DNA from: an uncultured Verrucomicrobiales bacterium
Lineage (GTDB): Bacteria > Verrucomicrobiota > Verrucomicrobiia > Verrucomicrobiales > DEV007
DNA: 56,012 nucleotides
Reading direction: 5' to 3'
Assembly (NCBI GenBank): GCA_937891465.1
Contig: CALAHF010000175.1
Span: 1-56,012, forward strand
The position numbers and the translations under genes are program-made. This document shows, one piece after another, positions 4,988 to 7,353 of the stretch (its first letter is position 1; each line of letters opens with the position of its first letter). The notes beneath the pieces were generated by a model. The model did no database searches and was not told the DNA's origin. It saw nothing but the letters and a program-made list of their open reading frames with translations.

Positions 4988-7252
4988 ATGCGACCTCTGT
5001 CTATCTTCACGGCTCTGTTTCTCTGTTTCGCTATTTCGGCGAACGCCCAGTTTGGAGCGCCTGAAACGGAGTCGTCGCTGGTCGTGGGAGTGACGTCGGT
5101 TGCGCCTGGCGAAACGTTCACGGTGGCGGTTGAGTTAACGCATGCTCCAGAGTGGCACTCATACTATAAGAATCCGGGTGGGGTTGGAATGCCGCTTTCG
5201 TTGACATGGAAGTTGCCGGAAGGGTTCGGCGGAGGAGATGTGATTTTTCCAACGCCTCATAAAGCCTCTGTGCCGGGTGCTGAGGGCGACGTGACCTTTT
5301 ATGGATACGAGGGCCGGAACGTATTTTTGGCGGACGTGACGGTGCCTGAGAATGCGGAAATCGGCTCGGAGATCGATTTCGAAGTGGGAGCCATGTGGTT
5401 GGTCTGCAATGATCGCGGCTGTAACCAGGAGCGAGTGACTTTTAATGATTCGATCACCATTTCTGAAAAGACGGTGCCAAATCCAGATGGCGTGGTTTTG
5501 ATTGAAGAAGCTCGGGAGCATCTTCCGAAAGCGGGAAAGGATATCCCGTTATCGATTTCCGAAACGGATGCGGGGATTATCGTAACTGCCGATCTTCCAG
5601 CGGAAGTTGAAAATCCGAAGACTGCCTATTTTTATTCGTCAGACCGGCAGATTGATGCTCAGCAGAAACAATCAGTATCTTTCAAAGACGGCAAAGCGGT
5701 ATTCTCCTTGAAGCGGAATTTAGGGGATGAGGCGAATTTTATCGAGGCCGGTCCCAAATTAGCGAGTCTCGATGGAATTGTGGTTATTAAGGCAGGCGGA
5801 AGCGAATTTGCTTATCAAGTGAGCGGAGCGTTTGACGGGGGTGAAGAAATCGCTGTTTCGGAAGAGCCACAAACAGAGGAGGAAGTTGCCGAACCCGAAG
5901 CTAAGGGTTTTTCAAGCCAGTGGACGGAAGAGGAAATTGCGGAAGGGGCGGCGCTATACAGTACGGATGATCGTCCGAAGTTTGAGCTACTGGATGGAAG
6001 TGAAGAGAAGAAATTGACGTTGCTGCCGGCTTTGGGGCTGGTTTTTGTTGGTGGACTGCTGCTGAACTTGATGCCGTGTGTGTTTCCGGTTCTGGGATTG
6101 AAAATCATGAGCTTTGTCCAGCAAGCTGGTGAAGACGAAAGTAAGGTGAAGAAGCACGGGATGGTGTTTGGATTGGGAGTGTTGGTTTCGATGTGGATTT
6201 TGTCGGGACTGATTATCGCTGCGGGTGAAACCTGGGGAGCTCAGCTGACATCACCGATTTTCGTGGCGGGAATCATCATTCTACTCTTTCTGATGGGATT
6301 GAATTTGGCGGGCGTATTTGAGTTCGGGACAGCGATGACGTCCGTCGGTGGAGAACTACAGTCCAAGAAGGGGTATTCAGGGTCATTCTTTTCCGGAGTT
6401 CTGACGACTTTGATTGCGACCCCTTGTTCTGGCCCGTTTCTCGGCGCTGTGATGGGGTTTGCACTGGCTGAGAAGGCTCCAATCGCGCTGTTGGTCTTTA
6501 CGATGTTCGCATTGGGAATTGCTTCACCTTACATTGTGCTTTCGTTTTTCCCGAAGTTGATCAACAAGCTGCCTCGGCCAGGCGCATGGATGGAGCACTT
6601 TAAAAAGGGAATGTCGTTCGCTCTATTCGCGACGGTGGCATTTTTCCTGAGATCATTCGCTAATCAAACGGGATACGATGGCCTTTCGTGGCTGCTGTTT
6701 GCGTTGGTTGTGATTGCATTTGCCGCGTGGATTTACGGAACGTGGTCAACGCCGATGCAGTCAAAGAAAATCCGCATGGGGATTGGATACGGGCTGACCA
6801 TATTGGTCGCCTTGCTCGGAATCAAAATGACCAGTATCGCGGTGAAGAAAGAGGCGCCGATTCTTGCGGGGGGAGATGATTGGAAGCAATGGTTTCCCGG
6901 AGCAATGGAGCTCTCGCGATCGAAGAAACGGATCGCCTGGATTGATTATACGGCTGAGTGGTGACTAACTTGCAAAACAAATGAGAAGCGTGTCTTCTCA
7001 AATCAGAAGGTAGTCGACAAATTAAAAGAGCTGAATGTGGTCTTGATCAAGGCGGACGCCACCAAACCGAGCGAGGCAATCGATTATGATCTCTTTCGGT
7101 TTAACCGGAGTAATTTGCCCGTGAACGTGATTGTTCCAGCAGATCCTGATCAACCGTTGATCATGATGCCGGAATTGATCAGCCCGAAGCAGGCGCTCAA
7201 AGCATTGGAGATTGCTGCGGAAGGTAGGAAGCCAAAGTCATCTTCGTTGTGA
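4988..7252 (+). CDS. dsbD: DsbD-like thiol:disulfide reductase, probable selenoprotein (in-frame TGA)
   Basis: Read through one TGA, the product is 754 aa. Residues 1-20 are a signal peptide (ANAQ). An N-terminal DsbD-alpha-like domain carries WLVCNDRGC (Cys140, Cys145). The membrane domain has about eight segments with both redox Cys: LMPCVFPVLG (Cys364) and ATPCSGPFLG (Cys480). The C-terminal thioredoxin-like domain reads TAEW-(TGA)-LTCKTNEKRVF: codon 659 (6962-6964) stands exactly where DsbD proteins have the first, nucleophilic Cys of CxxC, and Cys662 is kept. The same frame stays open for 95 more codons and matches the family to the end (PVNVIVPADPDQ, MPELISPKQALKAL). A SECIS-like hairpin follows. 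I infer selenocysteine. Electrons would pass from cytoplasmic thioredoxin to periplasmic partners. The ATG at 4988 was chosen over a TTG at 4970. A nonsense mutation is the alternative. Confidence 0.85.
6963..7015 (+). promoter_or_regulatory. Predicted bacterial SECIS element after the TGA
   Basis: Immediately 3' of the TGA a two-part stem-loop can form. The outer stem pairs GACTAACTT (6963-6971) with AAGGTAGTC (7007-7015), eight pairs and one A.G mismatch. The apical stem pairs TGAGAAG (6982-6988) with CTTCTCA (6994-7000), seven perfect pairs, closing the 5-nt loop CGTGT (6989-6993). The loop starts 25 nt after the TGA and its second base is G. This fits the published bacterial SECIS consensus as I know it: a loop 16-37 nt from the UGA and a G in the first two loop positions. 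Confidence 0.75.
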
Positions 7253-7272
7253 ACTGAAGGTGAGGTAGCTCC

Positions 7273-7291
7273 GCGCCTTTAATTGAGGCGC
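7273..7291. terminator. Short hairpin between the dsbD-like and CDGSH genes
   Basis: GCGCCT (7273-7278) and AGGCGC (7286-7291) form a 6-bp stem with a 7-nt loop, 20 bp after the dsbD-like stop and in front of the convergent CDGSH gene end. There is no clear T-run on either side, so intrinsic termination is only a possibility. Confidence 0.35.
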
Positions 7292-7353
7292 CAGTAGGTC
7301 CCTCTATTGAAAAGGAGTCTTTCTTTGTTTGGATGGTCAGAACTACAGACCGT

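Follow-up and report, generated by a model that had tools for sequence, protein, structure and literature searches.

A probable selenocysteine in the gamma-domain UxxC motif of a DsbD/ScsB-type thiol reductase from an uncultured Verrucomicrobiales bacterium

The forward strand of the window (the whole stretch of 56,012 nucleotides analyzed here) carries a 754-codon gene, at 4988-7249, in which an in-frame TGA takes the place of the first Cys of the CxxC motif in a C-terminal thioredoxin domain (Table 1). The frame stays open for 95 codons beyond this TGA and ends at the real stop, a second TGA. Translation with TGA read as U gives ...RIAWIDYTAEW-U-LTCKTNEKRVFS..., where TAEW-U-LTCK corresponds to residues 655-663 of a 754-residue product numbered from ATG 4988, and it confirmed the reading frame and the open codons on which the original prediction was built. 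The product has Cys at positions 13, 140, 145, 364, 480 and 662 in addition to the putative Sec at 659; the four other redox cysteines that had been predicted (140, 145, 364 and 480) are therefore present and were correctly numbered.

Table 1. Position of the predicted selenoprotein gene, its domains and its key residues in the window.
Feature	Position	Strand	Remarks
DsbD/ScsB-type reductase gene with predicted Sec, 754 codons	4988..7252	+	ATG 4988, UGA 6962 as Sec, stop TGA 7250-7252
Alternative start, in-frame TTG	4970	+	upstream of ATG 4988
N-terminal periplasmic region, residues 24-284	5057..5839	+	DsbD_N PF11412 (1.6e-9); 6c29-like fold (Z 8.9, 209 residues)
Cys140, Cys145	5405-5407, 5420-5422	+	N-terminal periplasmic region; conserved in 72/76 full-length Sec rows
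Transmembrane beta domain, residues 345-619	6020..6844	+	PF02683 at residues 349-554; helices in structural model
Cys364, Cys480	6077-6079, 6425-6427	+	transmembrane beta domain; both invariant, 81 full-length rows
C-terminal gamma thioredoxin domain, residues 629-749	6872..7234	+	PF13899; DsbDgamma 2fwf Z 11.5, 119 residues; DsbDgamma structures by sequence
Gamma-domain key residues: Sec659 (predicted), Cys662, Asp653, Glu666, Lys688, Pro711	within 6872..7234	+	
UGA predicted to encode Sec, codon 659	6962..6964	+	first Cys of CxxC, E. coli Cys461 position
Glu666 codon (E. coli Glu468 position)	6983..6985	+	also base of hairpin; Glu in 73/76 full-length Sec rows
Bacterial SECIS-like hairpin UGAGAAG-CGUGU-CUUCUCA	6982..7000	+	7 bp (6982-6988 with 6994-7000), loop 6989-6993

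Pfam recognizes DsbD_N, DsbD_TM (PF02683, 56 bits) and Thioredoxin_7 in the window protein, and when the E. coli DsbDgamma structures are aligned with its C-terminal domain, the TGA falls on Cys461. An AlphaFold2 model of moderate confidence (mean pLDDT 67) places residues 629-749 close to E. coli DsbDgamma (Z 11.5). In the same model, which is of low confidence in parts, residues 24-284 resemble the N-terminal domain of ScsB (6c29, Z 8.9), with a marginal match at the sequence level (E 0.99). Foldseek also returned antibody domains; these hits stem from Ig-like strands of the N-terminal region and were set aside. The features of the DsbD/ScsB family are all found in the window protein, i.e., the N-terminal Cys pair, DsbD_TM with two Cys and the gamma domain, here with UxxC, and it is best called a DsbD/ScsB-type transmembrane thiol reductase, with a predicted Sec variant of the gamma CxxC. 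The DsbD/ScsB-type name is more precise than the earlier label "DsbD-like" because the N-terminal region resembles ScsB. A query made of the membrane and gamma parts had a single match in the window genome, so this is apparently the sole transporter of its kind there.

DsbD homologues were found in 270 of the 289 genomes of the order. Of the best 30 loci of the order, 23 carry TGA at the site and the other 7 a Cys codon (TGC or TGT), and TGA at the same column was confirmed in 16 further genomes of the order; the site is TGA in 39 of the 289 genomes. Aligning homologues, as the original prediction had proposed, thus recovered TGA at the exact codon in some and Cys codons in others. More widely, GTDB contigs were scanned with a degenerate DNA pattern that has TGA at this codon; it matched 97 stretches, against an estimate of about one expected by chance. 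All but one of the 95 readable matches (94) are in-frame DsbD-like genes, from Verrucomicrobiota and Planctomycetota, and the carriers include the isolate Persicirhabdus sediminis (Verrucomicrobiota) and the complete chromosome CP036526 (Planctomycetota). Because the pattern was built from the present DsbD/ScsB family, it would not detect Sec forms whose flanking motifs differ. The match in Litorilituus (L070), a frame of 31+36 codons, was rejected as a chance hit.

The window genome is an assembly of 229 contigs and, like most of its relatives, a draft, which could raise the suspicion that a TGC was misread or misassembled as TGA, or that this is a pseudogene with a premature stop. However, the TGA stands at the same codon in dozens of genomes of two phyla, including the isolate and the complete planctomycete chromosome, and both frame and domain are intact. 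An error is refuted because the TGA recurs across independent assemblies, which makes the read-error alternative foreseen in the original prediction untenable, and we regard error and pseudogene together as having a practically negligible probability.

Other TGAs were also considered. Those flagged in the selA-less genomes G117, G146, G103, G094, G120, G041 and G077 (another family) turned out to end their genes, and the site itself is Cys there. One genome, G159, has three DsbD-like copies, one with Sec and two with Cys (contigs C86, C182 and C296). Elsewhere in the window, in-frame TGAs followed by long continuations showed no convincing hairpin or Cys context; at 2952-2979, for example, a 506-aa frame ends in TGA and the next long ORF (start 2979) lies in the same frame, but there is only a weak hairpin and the two look like ordinary neighbors.

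The Sec machinery whose search had been suggested is present in the genome. Its selA (496 bits), selB (283 bits, in a 649-aa frame) and selD (278 bits) all score above the curated cut-offs, and a tRNA-Sec with a UCA anticodon reaches 51 bits against a gathering score of 47, even though its 3′ part is cut off by the contig end. This tRNA-Sec, at L010:1-84, lies at the start of contig C113, with its 3′ part beyond the contig, and completes the Sec machinery of the window genome. The selD match is contained in a 749-aa open frame (L018, contig C43), much longer than SelD alone, which suggests a fusion. ARAGORN reported no tRNA within the window and also missed the truncated tRNA-Sec on L010. In the relatives G156, G159, G132 and G249, full tRNA-Sec genes above the gathering score accompany selB. 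Across the order, selA occurs in 37 of the 39 Sec genomes versus 95 of the 289 genomes overall (Fisher p about 2e-18, uncorrected for kinship); the two Sec genomes lacking it are G249, which has selB and a full tRNA-Sec, and G229, which is 54% complete. It was also found in 26 of the 28 GTDB pattern-match genomes checked.

The loop of the window hairpin, CGUGU (5 nt), starts 24 nt after the UGA and has G as its second base. Hairpins were scored as the best of the published bacterial type and compared with recodings that keep the amino acids; phylogenetic relatedness among sequences was left in both the synonymous-recoding and the shuffle tests. Plain dinucleotide shuffles give the window hairpin a z of about -1.4 to -1.6, which is nothing unusual, whereas the comparison with synonymous recodings of its codons gives p = 0.0066. 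Over 90 distinct Sec genes, the mean best-hairpin energy is -5.64 kcal/mol versus -1.07 for synonymous recodings, with p<=0.05 in 68 of them, while the 29 Cys homologues average -0.15 versus -0.07 when recoded, with p<=0.05 in a single case (1/29). Almost every Sec gene has the loop start 23-25 nt past the UGA, with a G in loop position 1 or 2. The stems differ by clade (GAGAAG-CGUGU-CUUCUC, GAGRGC-CGUGU-GUUCUC, GAGGC-GGUC-GCCUU and GAACA-GUU-UGUUC), and at pair 27-33 of the first register 21 of 42 sequences have G-C and 20 have C-G, a compensatory change. In a 16-row subset, none of 500 shuffles attained the observed covariation score (0.344), and pairing fell from 95.5% to 36-62% when the partner was shifted by 1-3 columns.

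This conservation is confined to part of the structure. Pairing in the upper stem holds in 35-42 of the 43 relatives, depending on the pair, whereas some lower-stem pairs form in only 5 or 8 of them. Of the two-part hairpin that had been predicted, then, the upper stem-loop stood, being kept across Sec homologues with compensatory changes and with G at loop position 1 or 2, and absent from Cys homologues, and the lower half (nt 2-10 with 46-54) proved not to be conserved. The upper hairpin alone has an energy of -6.3 to -7.1, and the 54-nt stretch reaches -10.8, partly through the non-conserved lower stem; the published criterion for bSECIS elements is an MFE of -7.5 kcal/mol or lower (PMC13188914). 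An Rfam search of 6700-7300 gave no match at E<=10, which is expected because bacterial SECIS elements vary. The stem covers the codon of Glu666, a residue kept as Glu in 73 of the 76 full-length Sec proteins; therefore, RNA and protein constraints may coincide here. In a few Sec genes, such as L042, L045, L099 and L134, the standard model gives only a weak or disrupted hairpin after the UGA, and their SECIS may have another shape.

An open frame after a TGA cannot, by itself, tell Sec from another amino acid, such as Trp or Cys, read through genome-wide or suppressor-based recoding. However, TGA also stops this same gene (7250) and other homologues, the recoding always falls on the catalytic Cys, and the Sec genes occur preferentially in genomes with selA and are followed by a SECIS-type hairpin. 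We consider such recoding very improbable; as far as comparative sequence evidence goes, a Sec reading of UGA 6962 is strongly supported.

It is highly probable, in our view, that the gene encodes a full-length DsbD/ScsB-type reductase in which Sec replaces the nucleophilic first Cys of the gamma CxxC (UxxC), with SelB-mediated insertion and a DsbD/ScsB-like electron path. SelB, together with Sec-tRNA, would bind the short hairpin located 24 nt past the UGA, and Sec would be inserted; if SelB did not act, translation would end at codon 658, and the product would lack most of the gamma domain. By analogy with DsbD and ScsB, electrons would pass from cytoplasmic thioredoxin to the membrane pair Cys364/Cys480, probably from there to the Sec659-Cys662 selenenylsulfide, and then probably through Cys140/Cys145 of the N-terminal domain to periplasmic partners.

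Bacterial Sec insertion competes with termination, and this counts for a different view of the UGA as mainly a regulated stop, with the 658-residue N-terminal and membrane part as the functional product and Sec read-through as a minor, selenium-dependent event. Such a truncated product would retain the N-terminal and membrane Cys pairs. The gamma residues after the UGA are nevertheless kept, Cys662 and Pro711 being invariant in 81 of 81 full-length rows, and therefore the full-length protein is under selection. A regulatory truncated form is still compatible with this, and we judge a mainly terminating UGA improbable next to a full-length selenoprotein.

On a 121-sequence tree, five switches between Sec and Cys are required, of which the starred branches force no fewer than four; the root and the exact change counts are unsure because this is a quick tree in which several long branches meet. 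Besides a separate planctomycete Sec clade, a Pirellulaceae group (Mariniblastus, K23_9; L116, L124, L128, L068, L076 and relatives) is nested in the verrucomicrobial Sec clade, and this placement suggests horizontal transfer of Sec-DsbD between phyla. Near the Sec clades there are also Cys forms (L041, L046 and L050, from genomes G267, G284 and G285) in small genomes, with no selA hit and no hairpin. They are consistent with, and likely represent, reversions from Sec upon loss of the machinery.

DsbD-type proteins are the main route of reducing equivalents to the bacterial envelope. We lean towards the idea that the genes mapped here form a widespread, undescribed class of full-length Sec DsbD/ScsB electron transporters in Verrucomicrobiota and Planctomycetota, with a selenol nucleophile, in which selenium would gate the envelope reducing supply wherever the protein is the sole transporter. 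If this is true, envelope redox supply is tied to selenium in two phyla rich in uncultured members. Dozens of genes are likely mis-annotated as truncated, the Sec trait being normally hidden because gene finders end the protein at the UGA. The repeated Sec/Cys switches and the existence of a cultured isolate make the question testable. Literature searches on Sec and DsbD, covering main texts, brought up only the reviews and surveys cited here, and in these we found no full-length Sec DsbD/ScsB described in Verrucomicrobiota or Planctomycetota; priority is uncertain. The literature searched likewise yielded no characterized Sec-DsbD/ScsB, and the original prediction had known of none; the domain class, on the other hand, already had a Sec prediction from ocean reads.

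We take cd02953 to be the DsbDgamma domain. In main-text passages of the 2008 GOS survey it appears as "Trx-like 2 (thiol disulfide interchange protein)", with UxxC and 22 Sec sequences, and Sec in the gamma-domain class is in this sense already predicted at the domain level (PMC2398784). The UxxC motif is common to the GOS reads and the window protein; the difference is that the former represent a domain family of ocean survey reads, for which those same passages give neither membrane architecture nor host phyla (PMC2398784). A second, older "thiol:disulfide interchange protein" selenoprotein, from Geobacter and Syntrophus (PF13098, WP_011366075.1), also has UxxC in a thioredoxin-fold disulfide reductase and differs, by its description, in its Thioredoxin_2 assignment and its reported deltaproteobacterial hosts (PMC1794560, PMC13188914). 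The 2026 inventory includes this PF13098 family together with the rhodanese/DsbD fusion TsoB (PMC13188914). TsoB (NF045694) aligns with the DsbD-like membrane and C-terminal parts (residues 337-702) but differs by a rhodanese part and by carrying two Sec (UxxxxU) (PMC13188914); at 169.7 bits, far below the family cut-off of 805, the window protein was rejected as a TsoB.

Like ScsB of Proteus mirabilis (6c29), the window protein has a large N-terminal periplasmic region, which in the structural model resembles the 6c29 fold, ahead of a DsbD-like membrane part. To our knowledge, known ScsB proteins use Cys, in contrast to the predicted Sec of the window protein. The Caulobacter pathway runs from ScsB to TlpA and the peroxiredoxin PprX (PMC5403849); the window protein is compared with its ScsB component, with no ScsC, TlpA or PprX partner assigned.

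E. coli DsbD (gamma Cys461-Cys464; 2fwf, 4ip1) has the same DsbD_N, DsbD_TM and gamma thioredoxin domains and three redox pairs; in the window protein Cys461 is replaced by the predicted Sec and the N-terminal region is longer. The positions of Asp455 and Glu468 are kept as Asp653 and Glu666. A selenol is normally ionised at neutral pH, and at the gamma nucleophile it would bypass a pKa control of the E. coli type. Sec at the Cys461 equivalent is striking because E. coli Cys461 is tuned to be unusually unreactive, its pKa of 10.6 being held high by Asp455 and Glu468 (PMC3961690). In E. coli DsbD, the Q488A change lowers this pKa, and the variant is reoxidized more readily and retains only about 75% of function (PMC3961690); position 488 corresponds to Lys688 in the window protein and is variable among Sec forms. 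A Sec with both acidic residues retained raises a direct question, namely whether the unreactive nucleophile of E. coli DsbD is truly required.
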